Origin: an uncultured Lachnospiraceae bacterium
GTDB taxonomy: Bacteria > Bacillota > Clostridia > Lachnospirales > Lachnospiraceae
Assembly (NCBI GenBank): GCA_946614165.1
Contig: CAMOGQ010000029.1
Span: 1-32,594, forward strand
Reading direction: 5' to 3'
DNA: 32,594 nucleotides
Shown here in pieces: positions 16,472-27,413 of this stretch. A program made the position numbers and the translations under genes. The notes beneath the pieces are model-generated. The model worked only from the letters and a program-made list of their open reading frames with translations, ran no database searches and was not told the origin of the DNA. Numbering within the stretch: position 1 is the stretch's first letter; each line of letters starts with the position of its first letter.

Positions 16472-17563
16472 TTATGCCTTTCCTTCCAGTCTGTCCAGAG
16501 TATCCCATACGCCCAGCATGTACTGTACGCCCAGAGCTCTGTCATATTTGCCGTAACCGGGACGGCAGGTTCCGGGGCCTTCCTCCCAGAGCTGACGGCC
16601 GTGGTCGGGACGGATGTATCCCTCGTAGCCGCAGTCATGGTATGCCCGGAGCACTTCGATGATGCCGGTGTCGCCGCAGCAGTCGCGGTGGGCTGCCTCG
16701 GAGAAGTCACCGTTGGGGAAGTGCTTGATGTTGCGGATGTGGCCGAAAGCGATGCGGTCGCAGTGCTTTCTGACGATCTCCGCGCAGTTGTTATTGGGGT
16801 TCGCGTTCAGGGAACCGGTGCACAGGGTCAGACAGTTGTGGGGATCGTCCACCATCTTCAGGAACCTGTCGCAGGCAGCCTCGTCTACCAGAAGACGGGG
16901 CAGACCGAAGATATCCCACGGCGGATCGTCCATGTGGATGGCCATCTTGATGTCGGCCTCCTTGCAGGCAGGCATAATGGCTTCCAGGAAATATTTCAGG
17001 TTGTCCCAGAGCATCTCCTTGGTAACAGGTGCATAGGCCTTGAAGAGCTCGTCCAGCTTCGCCATACGCTCGGGCTCCCAGCCGGGGAAAGTCATGTTGT
17101 ACTTCTCGGTGAAGCTCATGATGTAATCGGCCATGGCCTTGTAGTCTTCCTGGATCATGTCCTTCTGATAGAAAAGGGCGGTGGAGCCGTCTCCCACGGG
17201 GTGGAAGAGATCGGTCCTGGTCCAGTCGAAGATGGGCATGAAGTTGTAGCAGATGACCTTGACTCCGAACTTGCCCAGATTCAGGATACACTGCTTGTAG
17301 TTTTCGATGAGGGCGTCTCTGGTGGGAAGGCCGATCTTGATATCGTCGTGGACGTTGACGGATTCGACTACCTCGGCGTCAAAGCCGTAGGCATGGATCT
17401 GATCCACTACCTCTTTGATCTCCTCTTCTTCCCAGATTTCGCCAGGCATCTTGTGGTGCAGGGCCCAGACGATGCTTGTCACGCCGGGGATCTGCTTAAT
17501 GTCGGCCAGGGTAATGGGGTCGTTTCCTTCCCCGTACCAGCGCCATCCCATTTTCATTGCCAT
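16472..17563 (-). CDS. uxuA: Mannonate dehydratase
   Basis: A 363-residue TIM-barrel enzyme of the UxuA family that dehydrates D-mannonate to 2-keto-3-deoxygluconate, using a divalent metal. The start KMGWRWYGEGNDPITLADIKQIPGV, the MPIFDWTRTDL strand, HMDDPPWDIFGLPR and the IRPDHGRQLW end are all typical, and the length is normal. It is the first gene of uxuA-uxuB, with AAGGAGG seven bases before the ATG, and is divergent from an AraC regulator. Its product KDG feeds the nearby KdgK and Eda enzymes. UxaC and uronate transporters are not in view. Confidence 0.95.
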   Translation of the reverse strand: MAMKMGWRWYGEGNDPITLADIKQIPGVTSIVWALHHKMPGEIWEEEEIKEVVDQIHAYGFDAEVVESVNVHDDIKIGLPTRDALIENYKQCILNLGKFGVKVICYNFMPIFDWTRTDLFHPVGDGSTALFYQKDMIQEDYKAMADYIMSFTEKYNMTFPGWEPERMAKLDELFKAYAPVTKEMLWDNLKYFLEAIMPACKEADIKMAIHMDDPPWDIFGLPRLLVDEAACDRFLKMVDDPHNCLTLCTGSLNANPNNNCAEIVRKHCDRIAFGHIRNIKHFPNGDFSEAAHRDCCGDTGIIEVLRAYHDCGYEGYIRPDHGRQLWEEGPGTCRPGYGKYDRALGVQYMLGVWDTLDRLEGKA

Positions 17564-17604
17564 ACGGTAACCTCCTTGTTGTATGTGCTTTACCCTACAT
17601 CCTT

Positions 17605-17610
17605 ATCATA
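17605..17610 (-). promoter_or_regulatory. Possible -10 of uxuAB
   Basis: TATGAT on the minus strand, about 42 nt before the uxuA start. No convincing -35 is present at the right distance, as is common for promoters that need an AraC activator. The rest of the 342-nt uxuA-araC gap holds a TATAAA at 17862-17867 for the other direction but no further gene or clear operator that I can see. Confidence 0.35.
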
Positions 17611-17905
17611 GACTATGGGGCAGGAATGCGCATGGTTTATCTGCTCCAAAAATATGGTAATTCTTCGCCTCTTTACACCTGAATGCTTTGGCGCTGTCTC
17701 CGCCCCTGTCCCTTTGCGGACAAAATTCAGGCAAAGTCTCCCCCGGTTTTCCCAGAGACTCCGGACAGGCAGGGACAGATGCGCCATGGCAGATTTACCA
17801 CATGCCTTCAGGGGAAGCGGCGGAGGATTTGTCCCTTGCGGGGAGGGCCGCCATCCACTACTATAAAAGGCAGGAAGGGGAAGCCCTTTCCGGAAGGAGG
17901 TTCTT

Positions 17906-18769
17906 ATGGTCAGCCGCAGAGAGAAGTTCGAGACCAGACAGTATATGGTGAATCCTTACTTTGAGTTCCACCACTATTATGATGAAGAGCCCCTGTCGGT
18001 CCCCCTCCACCAGCATACCTTTTACGAGCTTTATTTCTTTATTTCGGGCAACGTGTCCTACCATATCGAGGGCAAGGATTACCACCTGGAGCCCGGAGAT
18101 ATCCTCATCACCGATGACATGGATATCCACGGCCCGGTCATCATGCCCGGCCTCCCCTACGAACGGATCGTGATCTGGCTCTCCCCGGAGTTTTTTGACG
18201 CCCTGGAACCCCTGGGCACCCCTTTCAGGGACTTTTTCATAAAGACCGCCTCCCGGGACTACCGTCTGATCCGGCCGGATCCCCTTACCAGCCGCCGCCT
18301 CATGGACCTGTGCGGCCAGATCTCCGATTTCAAGCACGACCAGGCCTTCGGAGGACAGGCCCTGTACGGAGCCAGCCTGATCGAGCTTCTGGCCTATCTG
18401 GGCAGGGCTGTCCAGGAGACTCCCGACCTGGCCATGCCGGATGTGACGGAGGACGAGCGGATCAACCATGTACTGGGCTATATCAACGCCCACCTGACGG
18501 AAGACCTGACCCTGAAGGAGATCTCGGAGGCCTTCTACATGAGCGACAAGTATCTGTGCCGCCGCTTCAGGAAGTACACGGGGTTGTCTGTCTACCGCTA
18601 TATCACCAAAAAAAGGCTGATCACCGCCCGGAACATGATCCGGGACGGGGTCCCTGTACTGACCGCCTGCATGGACAGCGGCTTTAACGATTATTCCAAC
18701 TTTCTGAAGGTCTTCAAGCGGGAGTTCGGCCATCTGCCCAGCCTGCTGAAGGAAAAAGGCTTCGAATAA
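17906..18769 (+). CDS. AraC family transcriptional regulator
   Basis: A 287-residue regulator: an N-terminal cupin-like sugar-sensing domain (about residues 15-110, with HQHTFYELYFFISGNVSYHIEG and LEPGDILITDDMDIHG) and a C-terminal double helix-turn-helix (about 190-285, LKEISEAFYMSDKYLCRRFRKYTG and SGFNDYSNFLKVFKREFG). GGAAGGAGG lies five bases before the ATG. It is divergent from uxuAB and so the likely regulator of mannonate use; its ligand is not known. Confidence 0.9.
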   Translation: MVSRREKFETRQYMVNPYFEFHHYYDEEPLSVPLHQHTFYELYFFISGNVSYHIEGKDYHLEPGDILITDDMDIHGPVIMPGLPYERIVIWLSPEFFDALEPLGTPFRDFFIKTASRDYRLIRPDPLTSRRLMDLCGQISDFKHDQAFGGQALYGASLIELLAYLGRAVQETPDLAMPDVTEDERINHVLGYINAHLTEDLTLKEISEAFYMSDKYLCRRFRKYTGLSVYRYITKKRLITARNMIRDGVPVLTACMDSGFNDYSNFLKVFKREFGHLPSLLKEKGFE

Positions 18770-18814
18770 AAAGATATCCTCCCGGTACAAGTGACCATGG
18801 GAGGATATCTTTTT
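18768..18814. terminator. Bidirectional terminator between araC and the MATE pseudogene
   Basis: A perfect 16-bp stem (AAAAAGATATCCTCCC with its complement) around a 15-nt loop. It overlaps the araC stop codon on one side and the MATE stop on the other, and has T-runs on both strands. Confidence 0.85.
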
Positions 18815-20172
18815 ATGCTTCTGTTTTCTGCATCCCCTGCAGCATTCCTCTCATCTTCCCCAGTCCAAGCAGGGCATAAGCAAGGCCGGCCGCCTCCGAG
18901 ATCCAGAAGGCATACCAGACCATGCCGATCCCTCCGTATCTGGCCAGAAGAAAGGCGCAGGGGATCAGGGGCACGAACTGGCGGAGGAAGGAAGCGGCCA
19001 TATTTGTGACGCCGTCCTCCCCCAGACCGGAGGCGAAATAGCCCGTGATCATGGTCAGACCGGCCGGAACAAAGGTCAGGGAGATGATCTTAAGGGCCGG
19101 GATGCCCAGGGAGAGCATGGCTTCCCCGGCGGAGAAAAGGCCCAGAAGGGCGCTTCCGAAAAGATGGAAGACCGCGGTCCCTGCCAGGGCGATGGCACAG
19201 GCCGAGAGGCAGACGAGCCTTCCGGCTTTCCGGACCCGGTCCGGGCGCCCCGCCCCGTAGTTGTAGCCCGCGATGGGAATGACAGCCTGTCCCAGGCCGT
19301 TCAGGGGCATGAAAAGGAAGTTCTGCAGCTTGTAATAGACGCACCGCAGCAGAGGAAAAGGGCAGCAGGATGGCATTGAAGGCCGTGACCATGAAGCTGG
19401 TCATGGCCTGCATGATCATGGTGGGAAGCCCCACCTGATAAATCTTCAGGATCCTTTCCTTTTCCATCCGAAAGCCCGGCAGGGCCAGATCCAGATTCGG
19501 ATTCATCTTGATATTCAGAACAAGGCCCGTAAGCATGCTGACCCACTGGCCGATGACCGTGGCCCAGGCGGCGCCCCGGATCCCCATGGCAGGGCATCCC
19601 AAAAGGCCGAAGATCATGATGGGATCCAGGATCAGATTGGTCAGAGCGCCGGATACCAGAGTGACCATGGAAAGAGCGGCCCTGCCCGATGCCTGGAGAA
19701 GGCGCTGAAAGACCATGCAGACCAGATTTCCCTGGCAGAGGACCATGCAGATCCGCAGATAGGGGGCGCACAGGGAGGAGATCCCGGGGTCGTCCGTAAA
19801 GGTCTCCGCCAGCCGTCCCGCAAAGGCAAGGCCCGCGGCCGTAAAGACAAGGCTGACCGCACCGGAGAGGGCAAGGCCCGTCTGGGCGATGCGGGAAGCC
19901 TCGTCAAAGTTCTTCATGCCAAGGTTCCTTGAAAGAATGGCGTTGACCCCTACCGCGGTCCCTACGCCGGCGGCGATCATCAGCATCTGGACCGGATAGG
20001 CCAGGGAAGCCGCCGTCAGGGCCTCCTCACTGAGCCTGGCCACAAAAATACTGTCAACTATGTTGTAGAGGGACTGGATCAGAAGGGAGGCCATCATGGG
20101 CAGGGACATGGACAGGACCAGCGTCCCCAGAGCCTGGGTCTCCATCCGGTTTCCTCTTTCTTCTTTTTTCAT
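18813..20172 (-). pseudogene. MATE family efflux transporter, frameshifted
   Basis: A MATE-type multidrug/Na+ efflux pump split into two frames. The first (277 residues from MKKEERGNRMETQ) carries ALYNIVDSIF-like and YPVQMLMIAAGVGTAVGVNAI segments and runs to SSAAV; the second continues from VYYKLQNFLFMPLNGLGQAVIPIAGYNYGAG to the stop. The frames meet near 19341. Family members have about four residues (such as S-V-Y-G) between these parts, so roughly 11 bases look to be missing, not one. Together the parts give a normal length near 455. The start has AAGGAG six to seven bases upstream. A sequencing error is possible, but a loss of 11 bases makes it less likely. Confidence 0.8.
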
Positions 20173-20189
20173 TTCATTCTCCTTTCCGC

Positions 20190-20240
20190 AAAAAAACAGT
20201 GTGAAAGAAGGGGGCAGCACTCCCCGCTTTCACACTGTTT
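20190..20240 (-). promoter_or_regulatory. Leader hairpin/terminator with AGTGCT loop before the MATE pseudogene
   Basis: On the minus strand a perfect 14-bp stem (AAACAGTGTGAAAG with its complement) encloses an inner GGGG/CCCC stem whose loop is AGTGCTG; seven Us follow, ending five bases before the ribosome site. It looks like an intrinsic terminator placed in the leader. It aligns with the hairpin at 21819-21868 before the other MATE gene, sharing CAGnGTGAAA, GGAGTGCT and the U-run. It could end the upstream MATE transcript, or act as an attenuator. Confidence 0.75.
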
Positions 20241-20291
20241 CCAGCCGGCTTAAAATCTTTATGACTTCTTTTCTGCCGGATCCTTCCGGCT

Positions 20292-21716
20292 TCAGATCCT
20301 GCCTTCCTTCAGTCCCTTCATGATCTTCAGGATCATGGCCGCCGCGATCAGGAAGGTCAGAAGATCCGATACGGGCATGGAATAAAGAACGCCGTCCAGG
20401 CCGAAAACAAGGGGCAGGAGCAGGACCCAGCCCACGCCGAAGACCACTTCCCTGATCATGGACAGAAGGGAGGACATGGCCGCTTTTCCGATGGACTGCA
20501 GGTAGATAAAGGTCCCCTTGTTGACGGTGGCCAGGGGCATCAGGCACAGGTAGGTGCGGAAGGACTTTACGGCAAAGTCCGTATAATAGGTGCTTTCTCC
20601 CGCCGCCCCGAAGATGCCGATCAGGACCTCTGGAAATACTTCTACAATAATAAGCGCTGCGGCGCCGGTCACGAATTCCGCTGTCAGCAGCATCTTAAAA
20701 AGGCTCCTGACCCGGTCCAGGCGGCCGGCTCCCATGTTGAAGCCGACCACCGGAATGCATCCCGCGGCCAGGCCCACCGAGATGGAGATCACAATCTGGA
20801 AGAACTTCATGACGATACCCACCACAGCCATGGGGATCTGGGCATACTGCGGCTGAGAAAATACCATGTCCAGGGCGCCGTATTTTACGATCATGTTGTT
20901 GACGGCCGCCATGGACGCCACCAGGGAGATCTGGGACAGAAAGCTGGTCAGACCAAGGGGCAGGATTTTCTTCATGAGAGAAGGGAAAAGACCGAAGCTT
21001 CTTCTCGAGGGGCGCAGGGTCTTCATATGGAAGAGATACCAGAGGGAAAGGCCCGCCGTCAGAAACTGCCCGGCTATGGTGGCCAGGGCCGCTCCCATCA
21101 TGCCCCAGCGCAGGCCGTAGATGCAGATGGGGTCAAAGACTATGTTGAAGAGGGCGCCTGCCACGGTGGAGATCATGGCAAAGCGGGGACTGCCGTCCGA
21201 CCGGATAATGGGATTGAGGCACTGGCCGAACATGTAGGCCGGAATACCGACGGCGATCCAGGTAAAATATTCCCTGGAAAGGGCAAAGGTCTCGTCATTG
21301 ACCCGGCCCCCGAAAAAGGTCAGGATCGAATCCCGAAACACAAGATAAAAGGCCATCAGGAGAAGACCAGCTCCCAGAACCAGGAGGATGGCGTTTCCCA
21401 CGCTCTTTTCCGCTTCCTCTTTCTTTTTCATCCCCAGGCTGATGCTGACAAAGGCACAGGCCCCGTCCCCGATCATGACCGCTATGGCCAGGGCCGCCAC
21501 CGTCAGGGGGAAAACTACGTTGCTGGCTGCGTTGCCGTAGGAACCCAGATAGTCCGCGTTGGCGATAAAGATCTGGTCTACGATGTTGTAAAGGGCCCCC
21601 ACCAGAAGGGATATGATGCAGGGAAGGGCATATTTTTTCATCAGCCTCCCCAGTTTTTCCGTGGCAAGATACTCCTGATTTTCTTTTTTCATTTTCATCT
21701 CTCTTTCTTTTGTCAT
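20292..21716 (-). CDS. MATE family efflux transporter
   Basis: An intact 474-residue MATE pump with about 12 membrane segments, expected to export drugs or metabolites in exchange for Na+ or H+. Typical family sequence is seen at ALYNIVDQIFIAN, GDGACAFVSISLGMK, PIIRSDGSPRFAM and the mid-protein SIGLAAGC-like and VGFNMGAGRLDRVR segments. The start MTKEREMKMKKEN has a GAGGGAG site five to six bases away; the open frame extends 44 codons further but those would cross the leader hairpin. It is followed 119 nt later by the frameshifted MATE gene. Substrate unknown. Confidence 0.9.
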   Translation of the reverse strand: MTKEREMKMKKENQEYLATEKLGRLMKKYALPCIISLLVGALYNIVDQIFIANADYLGSYGNAASNVVFPLTVAALAIAVMIGDGACAFVSISLGMKKKEEAEKSVGNAILLVLGAGLLLMAFYLVFRDSILTFFGGRVNDETFALSREYFTWIAVGIPAYMFGQCLNPIIRSDGSPRFAMISTVAGALFNIVFDPICIYGLRWGMMGAALATIAGQFLTAGLSLWYLFHMKTLRPSRRSFGLFPSLMKKILPLGLTSFLSQISLVASMAAVNNMIVKYGALDMVFSQPQYAQIPMAVVGIVMKFFQIVISISVGLAAGCIPVVGFNMGAGRLDRVRSLFKMLLTAEFVTGAAALIIVEVFPEVLIGIFGAAGESTYYTDFAVKSFRTYLCLMPLATVNKGTFIYLQSIGKAAMSSLLSMIREVVFGVGWVLLLPLVFGLDGVLYSMPVSDLLTFLIAAAMILKIMKGLKEGRI

Positions 21717-21818
21717 AGCGGCTCCCTCTCCCGCGGGAATGCGGGGCGGCCTGCTTCGGAAATATGATCGCAGAGATAAAAATCCGCTTTTTACTTCTTC
21801 TGTATCTTTCCTACACAA

Positions 21819-21868
21819 AAAAACAGCGCGAAATATGAGGTTTAGCACTCCTCTATTTCACGCTGTGA
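21819..21868 (-). promoter_or_regulatory. Leader hairpin/terminator with AGTGCT loop before the intact MATE gene
   Basis: On the minus strand ACAGCGTGAAATA pairs with TATTTCGCGCTGT (13 pairs, one G-U), with an inner GAGG/CCTC stem and an AGTGCTAAA loop, then seven Us. No same-strand gene lies upstream within 1.6 kb, so it is not a terminator of a preceding gene; it sits about 100 nt before the MATE start. This makes an attenuator or riboswitch-like role likely. Confidence 0.75.
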
Positions 21869-21901
21869 TCAGCTGGCTATGTATTCTTTTTTACGAGGGT
21901 C

Positions 21902-21910
21902 ATTATCTCA
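21902..21910 (-). promoter_or_regulatory. Possible promoter of the intact MATE gene
   Basis: Extended -10 TGaGATAAT on the minus strand without a good -35. It would give a leader of about 180 nt containing the AGTGCT hairpin. Confidence 0.35.
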
Positions 21911-21983
21911 CAGATCATTTTCTTTTTCATGTTTGCACTTTGCCGGTTTTTTCCGGAAAACCGGGGGCTTGTTTTTGCATTTT

Positions 21984-22013
21984 TTGACAGATGCCCTCTC
22001 CTGCGTCTAAAAT
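21984..22013 (+). promoter_or_regulatory. Promoter of the hypB pair
   Basis: Perfect -35 TTGACA (21984-21989), 18-bp spacer, -10 TAAAAT (22008-22013), about 35 nt before the first hypB. Confidence 0.7.
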
Positions 22014-22053
22014 AGGCTTATCATGCTGACCGGCAGCAAAGGAGTGATTGGTT

Positions 22054-22731
22054 ATGGACATGGACCGGGTAAAGGTAATAGAGCTGAAACAGAATATTTT
22101 CAGGGCCAACGAAGTGACCGCGGATAAGATCCGGGACCGCCTGAAAAAGAAAGGCACCCTTCTTGTCAACGTCATGGCATCCCCCGGGGCCGGCAAGACC
22201 ACCCTCCTTTCCAGGACCATTCATGCCCTGGAGGATACCTTCCGTTTTGGCGTCATGGAATGTGATATCGACGCCAGCGTGGACGCCCAGGCCCTTCTTG
22301 ACCAGGGGATCCCCGCCGTCCAGCTCCATACGGGCGGCATGTGCCACATGGACGCCGGAATGACCCAGCAGGGCCTTATGGAACTGGGGGAAGACGGACT
22401 GGACGTCATCTTCATCGAAAACGTAGGAAACCTGGTCTGCCCTGCGGAATATGATACCGGGGCCCATGAATGCGTCGCCATCCTCTCCGTTCCGGAGGGA
22501 GACGACAAGCCCGTAAAATACCCTCTCATGTTCCAGGTATGCGATACCGTTCTCATCAATAAGATCGACGCCCTGCCGGTCTTTGACTTCAGCAGGGAAC
22601 GGGTCCTTTCCGGGATCCGGGAGAGGAACCCCAGGGCAGAAGTCTTCTTTGTCTCCTCCCGCACAGGGGAGGGGTATGATGGCTGGATCCGCCGTCTGAA
22701 AGAAATGATCGTAAAGATAAAAGAGGGATAA
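22054..22731 (+). CDS. hypB: HypB-type nickel-insertion GTPase, copy 1
   Basis: A 225-residue SIMIBI-class GTPase of the HypB family, which uses GTP to deliver nickel to [NiFe] hydrogenase and sometimes to other nickel enzymes. The P-loop SPGAGKTT lies at 43-50; the metal site CH is C97-H98 (GMCHMD), with C129 in ENVGNLVCPAE; the guanine-specificity NKID is at about 170. There is no N-terminal CxxCGC or His-rich stretch. The ATG with AAAGGAG nine bases upstream is preferred to a TTG two codons before. It is followed two bases after the stop by a second copy; no hypA, hypC-F or hydrogenase genes are seen. Confidence 0.92.
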   Translation: MDMDRVKVIELKQNIFRANEVTADKIRDRLKKKGTLLVNVMASPGAGKTTLLSRTIHALEDTFRFGVMECDIDASVDAQALLDQGIPAVQLHTGGMCHMDAGMTQQGLMELGEDGLDVIFIENVGNLVCPAEYDTGAHECVAILSVPEGDDKPVKYPLMFQVCDTVLINKIDALPVFDFSRERVLSGIRERNPRAEVFFVSSRTGEGYDGWIRRLKEMIVKIKEG

Positions 22732-22733
22732 AT

Positions 22734-23411
22734 ATGAGCAGCGTAAGAGTCATTCAGGTGCAGGAAAACGTATTTGCAAAAAACGACAGGGAGGCGGAGC
22801 GGATCCGCAGGGATATGACATCTCAGGGGACCTTCTTTGTCAATGTCATGTCCGCCCCCGGCAGCGGAAAGACCACCTTTCTCACCGCCCTCATTAACTC
22901 CATGAAGAGCCGGTACAGGATCGGGGAGATGGACGTGGACATAGAATCCAGCCTGGACGCCCAGCGGGTGGCGGATCTGACGGGAGTAAAGTCCCTCCAG
23001 ATCCACAACTGCGGCCTCTGCCATATCGACGCGGATATGACGGCCAGAGCCCTGTCCGAATATGATACAAAGGGCCTGGACCTTCTGATCCTGGAAAATA
23101 TCGGAAACCTGGTCTGCCCCGCGGAATTCGATACCGGGGCCCATAAAAACGTTTCCCTCGTCTCCGTTCCGGAAGGCGACGACAAGCCCCTCAAATACCC
23201 TCTTATGTTCCAGGTCTGTGACCTGGTCCTCATTACCAAAATTGATACTCTGGACTATTTCGATTTCGATTTTGAGAAGGCCAGGGAAAGGATCCATGCC
23301 CTGAATCCCAAAGCGCAGGTCCTCCGGATCAGCGCCGTGACGGGCGAAGGCATGGACAGGGCCGTTTCCTGGTTCGAAGGGGAGATCGCCGCCGTGAAAG
23401 CCGCTGTATAA
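22734..23411 (+). CDS. hypB: HypB-type nickel-insertion GTPase, copy 2
   Basis: A 225-residue paralogue of the preceding gene, alignable over its whole length: P-loop APGSGKTT at 41-48, CH at C96-H97 (GLCHID), ENIGNLVCPAEFDTGAHK, and TKID in place of NKID for the guanine-binding loop. Codon and residue differences are spread throughout, so the duplication is old. Start lies 2 nt after copy 1 with an AGAGGG site inside its end, so both are made together; HypB acts as a dimer, which makes a heterodimer possible. Partners are not in the window. Confidence 0.9.
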   Translation: MSSVRVIQVQENVFAKNDREAERIRRDMTSQGTFFVNVMSAPGSGKTTFLTALINSMKSRYRIGEMDVDIESSLDAQRVADLTGVKSLQIHNCGLCHIDADMTARALSEYDTKGLDLLILENIGNLVCPAEFDTGAHKNVSLVSVPEGDDKPLKYPLMFQVCDLVLITKIDTLDYFDFDFEKARERIHALNPKAQVLRISAVTGEGMDRAVSWFEGEIAAVKAAV

Positions 23412-23461
23412 GTCCCCTGTTTCTTCGTCTGTCTGAGACTGCCTTTCATCCACGTAATTAT

Positions 23462-23505
23462 AAAGGAAGCTGCTTCGGCCCCGGGCCGCTGCAGCTTCCT
23501 TTTTC
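23462..23505. terminator. Terminator between hypB and the LysR gene
   Basis: A 12-bp stem (AAAGGAAGCTGC with its complement) with an inner CGGCCC/GGGCCG stem, followed by TTTTT on the plus strand. It ends the hypB transcript and touches the LysR stop codon. Confidence 0.85.
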
Positions 23506-24439
23506 AGATATTGCTCTTAAAATGCTCCATGAACCTCTGCACGGCCACCGGGACATAGGCCCTCCTGGGAAGAAGCATGTAAAAGATCCTGTCCGCCAGA
23601 GGGGAGTCGATGGCATAAAAGCGAAGGTCCGTATAGGAGGCCCTGACCAGGCGGTCGCAGGTCATGGTGATCCCGAAGCCGCTTTCCGCCAGCTTGAAAG
23701 CCGTGGTCATCTGCTGGAGGACGATCCGGATCTCGGGATCAAAGCCGGCCTCCCTGAAGATCTGTAACGCCCTGTCATAGAGGTTGTTGCCCTGGTCCAG
23801 GGCGATAAAGGGAAGGCCCCGGAAGGCTGATATCTCCACCGGCGGTTTTTTCATCCGCAGATGGTCTCCCTGAATGATCTCCTCCACCCCGAAAGATCTG
23901 TCTCCCAGGGTCTCGTTGATGGGGGCGTTCCATGGCACCGCCATCAGGAGCCGGTCCCGGAAAGCCTCCTGCTTTTTGAAGTCCTGCATGAATTCCATGT
24001 TGCAGCTGAAGGTCAGGTCCAGCTCATTTTTTGCAAGCATCTGGGACAGTCTGGCCGAGCTGAATTCCACCAGGCGGATCTGCACTCCGGGATAGCGCTC
24101 CTGGAAGGATGTCAGAAGATCCGGCAGGATGGATGTATTGACATAGTTGGATCCCCCAATGCTGATCTGTCCCTTCTCCAGATCCCTTATATCCCTGATC
24201 TGATCCGACAGATCCTTTTCCGCAAGGAGGATCTTTTCAATGGCTTTTAAATAGGCCTGCCCCGCTTCCGTCAGCTGCAGGGGATGGGCCCTTCTGTCAA
24301 ACAGAGGCATGCCGATGGCATCCTCTGTTTTTTTAATGGACTTGGACAGAGCGGGCTGGGAGACATAAAGGTTCTCCGCCGCTTTTGAAAAGCTGCCCGT
24401 CCTTGAGACTTCGTATATATACCGCATCTCTGTTTCCAT
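23504..24439 (-). CDS. LysR family transcriptional regulator
   Basis: A 311-residue LysR-type regulator: N-terminal winged helix (residues 1-60; GSFSKAAENLYVSQPALSKSIKKTED) and a two-lobed periplasmic-binding-like effector domain from about 90 on (ISIGGSNYVNTSILPDLLTSFQERYPGVQIRL). AAGGAG lies before the ATG. It is divergent from the UxaA-like dehydratase and DAACS genes, and its own promoter overlaps a dyad that is well placed for LysR control of both sides. Ligand probably the substrate of that pathway; identity unknown. Confidence 0.9.
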   Translation of the reverse strand: METEMRYIYEVSRTGSFSKAAENLYVSQPALSKSIKKTEDAIGMPLFDRRAHPLQLTEAGQAYLKAIEKILLAEKDLSDQIRDIRDLEKGQISIGGSNYVNTSILPDLLTSFQERYPGVQIRLVEFSSARLSQMLAKNELDLTFSCNMEFMQDFKKQEAFRDRLLMAVPWNAPINETLGDRSFGVEEIIQGDHLRMKKPPVEISAFRGLPFIALDQGNNLYDRALQIFREAGFDPEIRIVLQQMTTAFKLAESGFGITMTCDRLVRASYTDLRFYAIDSPLADRIFYMLLPRRAYVPVAVQRFMEHFKSNI

Positions 24440-24523
24440 CTGATCTCTCCTTTTTTCGCCCTTTCCGGAGCCCCCGGACGGGCTTTTTCATGCTTCTTAC
24501 GCGCTCATTTCCCTGGCCTTCAG

Positions 24524-24552
24524 ACTATAACCGCAGGTTATATATATGTAAA
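24524..24552 (-). promoter_or_regulatory. Promoter of the LysR gene
   Basis: Minus strand -35 TTTACA (24547-24552), 17-bp spacer, -10 TATAGT (24524-24529). The dyad at 24526-24542 covers the -10 and spacer, so binding would repress it. Confidence 0.6.
24526..24542. promoter_or_regulatory. LysR recognition dyad
   Basis: TATAACC-GCA-GGTTATA, a perfect 7-3-7 palindrome that contains the T-N11-A pattern. Its centre is about 64 nt before the predicted start of the dehydratase transcript, the usual place of a LysR recognition site. A second half-site GTTATAGTC (24567-24575), inverted copy of 24523-24531, lies near the -35. Confidence 0.65.
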
Positions 24553-24561
24553 TATCAGGAA

Positions 24562-24591
24562 TTGGCGTTATAGTCAACCCCACTGTATGAT
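24562..24591 (+). promoter_or_regulatory. Promoter of the UxaA-like / DAACS operon
   Basis: -35 TTGGCG (24562-24567), 18-bp spacer, -10 TATGAT (24586-24591). The weak -35 and long spacer suit an activator-dependent promoter. Confidence 0.5.
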
Positions 24592-24644
24592 GGAATCACA
24601 AAGAAAACAAACCCCGAAAGCAAATCGAATAAGGAGGAAGAAAG

Positions 24645-26153
24645 ATGGCATCCGTAAACGCATTAATGATGGACAGGGCCGATAACGTAGTGACCTGTGT
24701 CAGTCCTGTAAAGGCCGGAGAAGAAGTCACCTACCGCTGCGGCGAAGAAGTACTTTCCCTGACAGCCAGGGAAGATATCCCCTACTGCCACAAGATCGCC
24801 CTGACAGATCTTGCAGAAGGAAGCGACGTCCGCAAGTACGGCGAGCTGATCGGCCGGACAACGAAGGAGATCGCAAAGGGACACCTGGTAAACCACGAAA
24901 ACATCTACAGCGTTCCCAGGGACTATGACAGCGAGCTGGTAGACGCTTCCGGAGAAGAAGAAGAGCTTCCCCTGGTGGAAGGAAAGTCCGGCATGCAGTT
25001 CTGGGGCTACAGAAGAGCCGAAGGCAGGCCCGGCATCCGCAACCATGTCCTGATCCTTCCCACCTGCGCCTGCGGATCCGAAAGCTCCCGCATCGTGGCC
25101 AGCCAGGTCAGAGGCGCCGTCAACATCGTATTCAACACCGGCTGCTCCGACGTTGCCGCCAACACGGCCATGTCCCAGAAAGTCCTGACAGGCTTTGCCT
25201 GCAACCCCAACGTATACGGCGTGGTCATCATCGGCCTGGGCTGCGAGACCGTAGGCCACAAACTGCTGAAGGAAAAGATCCAGAAGATGACCTCCAAGCC
25301 CGTTGTCTCCTTCGGCATTCAGGACGAGGGCGGCACCTTAAAGACCATTGAAAAGGCCGTCCGGGCCGCCAGAGACATGGCCGCCGAAGCCGGCATGCAG
25401 CAGAAGGAACTCTTTGATATCTCCGAGCTCTTCATGGGCATCGAGTGCGGCGGATCCGACGCCACCAGCGGCATCGCCTCCAACCCCGCCGTAGGCGAAC
25501 TCTCCGACCTTCTGGTAGACCTGGGCGCCACCACCATGATGAGTGAGTCCATCGAATGGATCGGCGGCGAACACGTGGTAGCCAAGAGAGCGGCCACTCC
25601 CAGGATCCACAATGAGATCATCGAAGTCTGCAGGGCCTATGAAGACCATCTGCTGGCAGCGGGCCAGGACTGCAGGGCAGGCCAGCCCACTCCCGGCAAC
25701 AAGGCAGGCGGCCTCTCCACCCTTGACGAGAAGAGCCTGGGCTGCATCCGCAAGGGCGGCACAAGGCCAATCGTGGAAGTTCTGGAGCAGGCAGAGCGTC
25801 CCACAAAGCGCGGCGCCCTGGTCATGGATACGGCAGGCTACGACATCTCCTCCGTTACCTCCATGGTGGCGGGCGGCTGCCAGGCCGTGATCTTCACCAC
25901 CGGCAGAGGCACTCCTACAGGCAACGCCATCGTTCCGGTCCTGAAAGTCACCGCCAACGAGCTGACCTATAAAAAGATGGAAGACAACATGGACGTGGAT
26001 CTTTCCGCCATCGTCAGAGGCGAAAAGACCTATCAGGAAATGGGAAAAGAACTCCTGGCCGTCATGCACGACATCTGCAACGGCAGGATGACCAAGGCGG
26101 AAGCCTACGGATTCTCGGACATCGCCGTAGACCACGTCTGCAGATTTGTATAA
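24645..26153 (+). CDS. UxaA-family dehydratase/lyase (altronate/galactarate dehydratase-like)
   Basis: A 502-residue fused two-domain enzyme. Residues about 1-90 form a SAF domain (IPYCHKIALTDLAEGSDVRKYGELIG); from about 120 follows the catalytic UxaA domain (FWGYRRAEGRPGIRNHVLILPTCACG, NPNVYGVVIIGLGCE, SDATSGIASNPAVG, FTTGRGTPTGNAIVPVLKV). The family removes water from altronate or galactarate, or sulfite from sulfolactate, using iron. In place of the common HGxGC segment it has NTGCSDVAANTAMSQK, so it may be a separate branch with another hydroxy-acid substrate. It heads an operon with a DAACS symporter 27 nt downstream, and ribosome site AAGGAGG. The name uxaA is not assigned for this reason. 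Confidence 0.85.
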   Translation: MASVNALMMDRADNVVTCVSPVKAGEEVTYRCGEEVLSLTAREDIPYCHKIALTDLAEGSDVRKYGELIGRTTKEIAKGHLVNHENIYSVPRDYDSELVDASGEEEELPLVEGKSGMQFWGYRRAEGRPGIRNHVLILPTCACGSESSRIVASQVRGAVNIVFNTGCSDVAANTAMSQKVLTGFACNPNVYGVVIIGLGCETVGHKLLKEKIQKMTSKPVVSFGIQDEGGTLKTIEKAVRAARDMAAEAGMQQKELFDISELFMGIECGGSDATSGIASNPAVGELSDLLVDLGATTMMSESIEWIGGEHVVAKRAATPRIHNEIIEVCRAYEDHLLAAGQDCRAGQPTPGNKAGGLSTLDEKSLGCIRKGGTRPIVEVLEQAERPTKRGALVMDTAGYDISSVTSMVAGGCQAVIFTTGRGTPTGNAIVPVLKVTANELTYKKMEDNMDVDLSAIVRGEKTYQEMGKELLAVMHDICNGRMTKAEAYGFSDIAVDHVCRFV

Positions 26154-26180
26154 AGGATTTTTAAAGGGAGGAAATGAAAC

Positions 26181-27413
26181 ATGAAGACACTTCTGGGCAA
26201 ATGGAACAAGATGAGCCTGTTCACCCGCATCATGATCGGCTTTGTGCTGGGTATTATTTTCGGCCTGATCGCAGGCGAAAAAGCATCCAGCGTCGCTTTC
26301 CTGGGCACCATCCTGACAAGGCTTCTGACCATGGTGGTGGCGCCCCTGGTCCTTGGCCTTCTCATCTGCTCTGCGGCAGACGTCAAGGATTTCAAGACCC
26401 TGGGCAAGATCGGCGGCAAGACCCTGGCCATCTTCCTGGGCGGCACCGCCTTCGCAGTGGCCATCGGCCTGGTGGTATGCAACGTTCTGAATATCGGGGC
26501 CGGCTTCGTCATGGAGTCAGGCGTGACCTATGACGCCAAAGAGATCCCCAGCATCTCCGAGACCCTGCTCAACATCATCCCCACAAACCCCTTCAACGCC
26601 CTGGCCAACCAGAACCTGCTGCAGATCATCTTCTTTGCCCTGCTTCTTGGCTTTGCTCTGATCGCTCTGGGCGAAAAGGGCGATCCGGTCTTAAACTTCT
26701 TCCGTTCCTGGACCGACGCCTGGAAGGAGATCACCAACATCGTCCTGGAGTTCACTCCCTTCGGCGTATTCGGACTTATGGCTGACATCGTAGGCAAGTA
26801 CGGCCTCAGCGTCATGCTTCCCTACCTCAAGGCCATCTTCGCATGCTACCTGACCTGCTTCCTCTACACCGTGCTGGTACAGGGCGGTCTTATGGTGGGT
26901 CTCTACGCAAGGATCAGCCCCTTAAAGTTCTTCGCCACCATGAAGGAAGCCATGCTCTTCGTATTCGCCACCTGCTCTTCCGTTGCCACTATCCCGATCA
27001 ACCTTAAGTGCACCAAAAAGCTGGGCGTTTCCGACAAGATCGCGGACTTCGTCATCCCCTTCGGCGCTGTCATGAACATGAACGGCACCGCCATCTATGA
27101 AGCCGTAGCCGTTGTCTTCGCCTCCCAGGTCTTCGGCATCCACCTGTCCGTGACCCAGCAGATCATGGTCATGGTCACAGCTGTCCTGGCTTCCGTTGGC
27201 ACTGCCGGCATCCCCGGCTCCGGCCTGGTCATGCTGACCATCGTCCTGAATGCCGTCAACCTTCCTCTGGAGACCATCGCTCTTCTGGCCGGCATCGACA
27301 GGATCCTGAACATGGCCCGCGTCATCCCCAACATCGTGGGCGACGCAGCAGCCGCTGTCATGGTAGCAAAGAGCGAAGGCGAGCTTCATCCCGAAGCCGT
27401 GACCGAAGAATAA
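26181..27413 (+). CDS. Dicarboxylate/amino acid:cation symporter (DAACS family)
   Basis: A 410-residue membrane carrier of the GltP/DctA/SstT family, moving C4-dicarboxylates or acidic/neutral amino acids with Na+ or H+. Diagnostic are the re-entrant serine-rich turn FATCSSVATIPINLKC, the unwound NMNGTAIYEAVA helix, the second hairpin SVGTAGIPGSGLVML and the end GIDRILNMARVIPNIVGDAAA. About eight membrane helices. It follows the UxaA-like enzyme in one operon with GGGAGG, so it probably brings in that enzyme's substrate, an anionic hydroxy acid by inference. A terminator follows. Confidence 0.92.
   Translation: MKTLLGKWNKMSLFTRIMIGFVLGIIFGLIAGEKASSVAFLGTILTRLLTMVVAPLVLGLLICSAADVKDFKTLGKIGGKTLAIFLGGTAFAVAIGLVVCNVLNIGAGFVMESGVTYDAKEIPSISETLLNIIPTNPFNALANQNLLQIIFFALLLGFALIALGEKGDPVLNFFRSWTDAWKEITNIVLEFTPFGVFGLMADIVGKYGLSVMLPYLKAIFACYLTCFLYTVLVQGGLMVGLYARISPLKFFATMKEAMLFVFATCSSVATIPINLKCTKKLGVSDKIADFVIPFGAVMNMNGTAIYEAVAVVFASQVFGIHLSVTQQIMVMVTAVLASVGTAGIPGSGLVMLTIVLNAVNLPLETIALLAGIDRILNMARVIPNIVGDAAAAVMVAKSEGELHPEAVTEE

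Follow-up and report, generated by a model that had tools for sequence, protein, structure and literature searches.

The closest described mechanism to the one considered here is that of the HMP-PP (thiS) riboswitch, in which, according to PMC6478431, a small sensing fold lies almost wholly within an intrinsic terminator and the ligand suppresses termination. The guanidine-IV riboswitch (mepA, GGAM-1) is described as a transcriptional on-switch with conserved nucleotides in the terminator loop (PMC7736828, PMC11611296, PMC12186494); it consists of two hairpins joined by loop-loop (kissing) pairing (PMC7736828) and has been found in terminators before MATE and other transporter genes (PMC7736828, PMC12186494). 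The Gd4v motif, as described in PMC9788692, has two hairpins and a pseudoknot and stands mainly before transaminase genes, with some copies before MATE genes.

Here we analyze two hairpins before MATE genes in a stretch of 32,594 nucleotides (the window) from an uncultured Lachnospiraceae bacterium. Like ordinary intrinsic terminators, they have a GC-rich stem and a U-run; unlike them, they lie upstream of the genes, and the two leaders share conserved stretches outside the stems. Compared by description rather than by sequence alignment, the HMP-PP riboswitch is the nearest in mechanism, but it controls thiamin genes whereas the window element precedes MATE genes; the comparison with Gd4v, also by description rather than alignment, yields MATE genes in common. 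With guanidine-IV the resemblance lies in conserved nucleotides within a terminator loop, the position before MATE genes and the proposed control as a transcriptional on-switch. The upstream kissing hairpin of guanidine-IV is missing both from the window leaders and from a second RNA, the R2 motif, that relatives carry, and the cores differ; judged by eye, neither tetraloop of the window leaders (AUCA, GAAA) finds complementary bases in the terminator loops. The window element and the R2 motif share their place, the kinds of target gene and a similar proposed layout.

A preliminary description of this locus had reported two related minus-strand hairpins before two MATE genes, and both are present. 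We located and folded terminator hairpin 1 with its U7 tail upstream of MATE1 (21817..21866, minus strand) and hairpin 2, likewise with a U7 tail, between MATE1 and MATE2 (20190..20240, minus strand). Each has the stable stem-loop with a U-run directly behind it by which intrinsic terminators are recognized. The RNA fold of the hairpin at 20190 reaches -34.4 kcal/mol (z -4.83), and none of 200 dinucleotide shuffles is as good; the hairpin at 21819 reaches -25.0 kcal/mol (z -3.55), with 1 of 200 shuffles as good. A simple terminator scan of the window missed both hairpins, apparently since its stem rule does not tolerate their internal loops.

The two leaders can be aligned gap-free over the stretch from CAGnGTGAAA through GGAGTGCT, the conserved loop stretch (21844..21851 in hairpin 1 and 20216..20223 in hairpin 2, both on the minus strand). 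The stems differ in a compensated manner, with C-G facing U-A in the outer stem and GAGG/CCUC facing GGGG/CCCC in the inner stem. The gap-free alignment, the compensated changes and the seven Us described earlier are all confirmed by this alignment, and the likeness continues 5' of the hairpins in AGCCnGCTG, a stretch absent from the preliminary description. The local alignment score of leader 1 against leader 2 is 31; scores from 500 shuffles never exceed 20, and none of 1216 other pieces of the window used as a control exceeds 14. Taken by itself, GGAGTGCT is unremarkable, with 2 occurrences in the window compared to 1.26 expected. Across 225 compared aa, the MATE1 protein and that of the first MATE2 piece share 33% identity.

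MATE1 (20292..21695, minus strand) encodes 467 aa and matches MatE twice (Pfam PF01554, E 2.7e-32). In the MATE2 region (18813..20172, minus strand, from the ORF list and PF01554) the reading frame changes, and the gene appears as two ORFs in different frames, with PF01554 E-values of 2.6e-31 and 1.6e-13 when the pieces are searched separately; the break is either an assembly error or the mark of a decaying gene. The genome as a whole (G000) has 41 MatE domain matches, or about 20 MATE genes. The ORFs ahead of MATE1 (22048-23411) are read as running on the opposite, plus strand. This agrees with the preliminary description, which saw no same-strand gene there, and means that hairpin 1 does not terminate a gene directly ahead. 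We take these adjacent, related ORFs (22048-22731 and 22734-23411) to resemble HypB-type GTPases.

A predicted extended -10 element of MATE1, TGAGATAAT (21902..21910, minus strand), is a weak promoter-like match (9/12), and matches of its quality occur 8 times in 10 kb compared to 4.3 expected. Transcription of MATE1 is predicted to start near 21894. The U-run of hairpin 2 lies 17 nt from the start codon of MATE2. Another weak promoter-like match, at 20205-20176, overlaps hairpin 2 and would leave almost no leader, its -10 ending 3 nt before the MATE2 start codon; MATE2 transcription therefore probably passes the terminator.

A second species of the genus (G316) carries a MATE1 that is 97% identical. 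From the predicted transcription start to the end of the U-run, 75 of the 78 columns of leader 1 are identical in this species, the differences being one base of an A-run and loop bases after AGTGCT. The flanks agree at 84/150 positions before the -10, at 27/40 just behind the U-run and at 34/105 further on. G316 retains TGTGRGATAAT, and 7 nt downstream of it the strongly conserved leader begins. Between hairpin 1 and MATE1, a further stretch (21777-21751, minus strand) is identical at 26 of 27 positions, its surroundings less so, and is as conserved as leader 1. Leader 2 differs only in the length of the U-run, but its conservation is uninformative because its surroundings in G316 are nearly identical too. 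Over 17000-26200 of the window, compared with the corresponding locus (L129), near-identical blocks alternate, in a mosaic, with blocks of about 80% identity between the two genomes; this pattern in the sequences suggests recombination, which may account for part of the leader conservation.

To describe the spread of the element, we built a covariance model of the two window hairpins (R1). It gave strong matches only in G000 and G316 among 299 genomes of the family, 62 of the genus and 391 of the class, where searches of more than 40 genomes used stricter filters by which weak copies can be lost; the remaining matches are weak (28-36 bits). A weak third match in the same genome (G000 C3:18561-18630, L011) has a GAGTGC loop and no U-run and was set aside. 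The ORF ahead of it presumably resembles a CoA transferase. We also set aside a weak match in G308, which lies behind a small ORF and has another loop, and those at L004-L009, L014 and L015, judged from alignments or scores alone. In G000, a strict pattern found the window pair only. The AGTGCT loop occurred nowhere else among 18 places with MATE leaders in this genome, the window pair included, in a rough survey in which the flanks of partial loci were guessed; several of these places have terminator-like hairpins. A search of viral contigs yielded 0 matches to the AGTGCT element, and plasmids and phages yielded none to leader 1.

The preliminary description had envisaged a family of AGTGCT hairpins, with covariation, before MATE genes. 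Strong copies are confined to G000 and G316, too few to demonstrate covariation with a fixed loop; the covariance-model search that it proposed for enrichment before MATE genes turned up next to no further copies outside the two species. The proposed comparison with Rfam (release 15) likewise gave no family at gathering score in the window, and the matches in 20150-22100 are all at chance level.

Both leaders contain sequences that could form a fold competing with the terminator. Upstream of the hairpins, AGCC is conserved: in leader 1 it occupies 21875..21878 (minus strand) and is seen in both leaders and in G316, and in leader 2 it occupies 20247..20250 (minus strand, leader alignment). Because both AGCC and AGUGCU are fixed, we propose that AGC pairs with the GCU of the loop. 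When growing 5' prefixes were folded, a GCUG/CAGY hairpin appeared in both leaders at several lengths, though not all, before the terminator is complete. In leader 1 this is GCUG-AUCA-CAGC (21862..21873, minus strand), found at most but not all prefix lengths and using the first bases of the terminator stem; in leader 2 it is GCUG-GAAA-CAGU (20234..20245, minus strand), found in prefixes of 55 to 66 nt. Both hairpins draw on bases from the first strand of the terminator.

By the energy model, nothing is gained from the AGC/GCU helix: P1 (AGC/GCU) together with P2 (GCUG/CAGY) comes to -3.8 and -3.9 kcal/mol in the two leaders, compared to -4.5 and -3.9 for P2 alone, and neither combination is the best prefix fold. 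Only the 55-nt prefix of leader 1 gave a pairing of the AGC/GCU type, UAGC/GCUA, and there the inner fold was different. The AGC/GCU helix would require a ligand, a protein or tertiary contacts.

Both hairpins are probably attenuators, a reading favored by their position before MATE genes. Of the earlier proposal that these terminators control efflux pumps through a conserved binding loop, the part that holds is that they are terminators in leaders and probable attenuators; the fixed AGTGCT, however, may be a strand of the alternative helix rather than a binding loop. By default, polymerase would stop at the U-run of the leader terminator. Under an inducing condition, the nascent leader would be held as a pair of AGC (in AGCC) and GCU (in AGUGCU) around the GCUG/CAGY hairpin, and since this alternative fold would consume the foot of the terminator stem, transcription would read into the pump gene. 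This direction of control is putative; the natural guess for the signal would be a toxic compound exported by the pumps. The AGTGCT element would be a replacement, in one small lineage, of the different terminator-embedded RNA found before homologous pump genes in most of the relatives that we examined.

We give an even chance to the complete reading, in which leader terminators of MATE efflux genes attenuate through competition between the terminator and the AGC/GCU plus GCUG/CAGY fold and arose by lineage-specific replacement. In its favor are the strength and the likeness of the hairpins beyond controls, the conservation of leader 1 in G316, the GCUG/CAGY prefix folds of both leaders, the 17 nt left by hairpin 2 before MATE2, and the other terminator-embedded RNA that relatives of both pump genes have at this place. 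Counted against it are the weak promoter match of MATE1 and the one overlapping hairpin 2, the recombination that may explain part of the conservation, the broken frame of MATE2 in the assembly, the stretch at 21777-21751 that is as conserved as leader 1, the energies of the alternative fold, and the restriction of the element to two paralogous leaders in two species.

The MATE genes of relatives are preceded by a different terminator-embedded RNA, the R2 motif, with the arrangement P1-GNGYR-P2-GUAARUCCR-P1'. We sampled the best 79 loci of a longer list of MATE1 relatives (L020-L098), 75 of which have at least 150 nt upstream. Among these best 79, the two-part motif GNGYNGC...GCRUAARNCCR lies within 400 nt before the start in 60 of the 75 and, in a relaxed form, in 63 of the 75; 12 of the 75 have at least two copies, and the motif sometimes stands in tandem. 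Elsewhere, the strict motif matched 3 times in 1.35 million strand-bases. Three MATE1 relatives without the motif (L022, L024, L029) have another hairpin-like stretch in common, GAGATTSTGCTYCGCACAAT, within 260 nt before the MATE start.

For the window's own genus we examined 20 of 30 MATE1 loci, leaving out L119-L128, with L115 too short. The second part of the motif lies within 330 nt before all 17 of the 17 assessable homologues (L101-L114, L116-L118), and within the same distance before MATE1 it was not found in G000 or G316. Five MATE proteins with an R2 RNA in front share 37-40% identity with the first MATE2 piece (271 aa).

The R2 core is placed in one of two layouts: it lies within the loop of a long terminator, or the first strand of the terminator includes it in its pairing. 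An automatic count assigned 15 of 73 to the second layout, four of these being doubtful cases. When not engaged in the terminator, the core can form a P1 of three pairs, GNGYR, P2, GUAARUCCR and P1'. We examined covariation, which is clear, in two alignments. In A2, whose 65 rows were picked by a regular expression so that the invariant letters are partly built in (L070 was dropped beforehand and identical rows were merged), 60 cells change on both sides compared to 19.0 in shuffles. A3 was drawn from 100 chosen loci as R2 matches at E 0.01 and is less biased than A2, though fitted to the model; in its 103 distinct matches each of the three P1 pairs varies in both strands. Across the whole structure, A3 has 93 cells changed on both sides compared to 27.6 in shuffles, and its covariation score of 0.494 falls to at most 0.093 once the partner strand is slid. 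By one measure the alignments do not stand out: pairs that vary in both partners are scarcely more numerous than in shuffles (4 vs 3.5 in A2; 5 vs 3.7 in A3).

In the R2 loci, GNGYRGC is often preceded by a -10-like hexamer whose end lies 9-12 nt away (33 hexamer counts in 60 loci). Many R2 transcripts therefore seem to start at P1, and in those loci there is no room for an upstream hairpin of the guanidine-IV type.

Searches with the covariance model R2 recovered the motif in 28 of 62 genus genomes (E 0.001), in 35 of 295 order genomes (E 1e-5) and, at the same threshold of 1e-5, in 35 of 391 class genomes from 14 families. Among the genus genomes with a MATE1-like gene, 21 of 25 carry it, genomes being counted irrespective of kinship. 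The genes behind it are mostly, not solely, MATE. At the genus level, MATE follows in 24 of 30 loci and MATE pieces in L158; in L130 and L143 the sequence stops too early, and no MATE was seen in L136. L137 has the motif ahead of a CarD-like ORF (Pfam) and L151 has it ahead of an ORF that, by eye, resembles this one. At the order level, where 30 of 38 places were examined, MATE lies behind the motif in 25 of the 30 (22 plus L166, L176 and L181, two of these three having MATE 500-600 nt away). The other order-level loci include one ABC exporter and one small membrane ORF without a Pfam match; no gene was found for L172, and L188 ends too soon. One more ORF behind the motif at this level is presumably polysaccharide-deacetylase-like. 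Among 28 further loci at the class level, 21 have MATE, six do not and one ends too soon; judged by eye, the six comprise two small membrane ORFs, two ORFs with signal-like starts and two unclear cases.

Is R2 a form of guanidine-IV? We rejected this identity on layout and core. The R2 model found nothing significant in 33 loci with SMR genes, with no match in 3 of them and one at E 2.3 in the other 30. SMR genes are rare in the order (3/96 genomes) and occur in 28/199 genomes of the phylum; the 30 phylum loci were all scanned with R2 and 20 of them with Rfam. Five SMR genes (L191, L192, L228, L236, L239) are preceded by guanidine-IV-like leaders with RCC/GGY loops, an assignment that rests on the positions published in PMC7736828 and PMC11611296. 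The Rfam scan flagged none of these five leaders, so absence from Rfam is weak evidence for the novelty of R2. The R2-type loci that we scanned with Rfam 15 left the motif unmatched, with chance-level matches in L093 only, and among the papers listed by searches of the open-access literature we found neither the AGTGCT element nor the R2 motif described.

The R2 model scores the window hairpins at chance (best match in 17000-25000, 6.7 bits, E 3.2), so the window element is not an R2 member, and there is no R2 match in the genome at E 0.001. In the relatives, control of such pumps by a family of terminator-embedded RNAs is a well-supported idea. The R2 motif is a candidate riboswitch there and may outweigh the window finding in importance. 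Its definition in the broadest reading is a three-pair P1, GNGYR, a P2 closed by G-C pairs and GUAARUCCR, sometimes in tandem. In that reading, an undescribed terminator-embedded riboswitch of about 35 nt would control MATE genes across the class by sensing a common toxic compound, and both window leaders would have swapped it for the unrelated AGC/GCU plus GCUG/CAGY switch of the same layout; we advance this tentatively, at slightly less than an even chance.

How much of this could be explained by termination without sensing? Hairpin 2 could simply end the MATE1 transcript as an ordinary terminator, or could act inside an operon to set the MATE1:MATE2 ratio, with hairpin 1 serving as a constitutive brake. 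A stem and a U-run would suffice for this and both are present, a copied leader segment would give the likeness without constraint, and the alternative fold has little energetic backing; in Clostridia, transporter stoichiometry is reportedly set by internal terminators (PMC9045158). Yet AGCCnGCTG and GGAGTGCT, which a terminator could dispense with, are nearly fixed while stem bases vary, leader 1 is conserved between less conserved flanks, and relatives have a structured, covarying RNA at the same place. Such plain terminators are possible, though on these grounds rather unlikely. The constancy of the loop, the part that varies least from one copy to the other, would also be expected if an antiterminator or other RNA-binding protein bound GGAGUGCU and controlled termination; the same constancy may stem from pairing with the upstream AGC, and we find a protein-bound loop quite improbable.

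The window elements might also be strongly diverged members of R2, given the same gene families, the same place, the embedding in a terminator and a similar layout, together with an outer stem that is similar in some R2 copies (L058, L165). This is doubtful, as the R2 model stays at chance over these 8 kb and both conserved internal strands of R2 are missing. Very improbable, finally, is attenuation by a leader peptide, in which ribosomes would stall under antibiotic on a short ORF before hairpin 1. By eye, this frame is open in both species, with 8 codons in G000 and 7 in G316 and the same stop, but its ATG overlaps the predicted -10 and thus lies ahead of the predicted transcription start, and leader 2 has, again by eye, no in-frame counterpart.

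If the leaders are switches, they would tell when these bacteria turn on their efflux pumps, and the window pair would show one regulatory RNA swapped for another before the same genes. The R2 candidate riboswitch merits more attention than the window hairpins themselves: it has more than 100 copies, a simple layout and a near-constant target family, and its ligand would indicate the natural substrate of this large group of MATE pumps.
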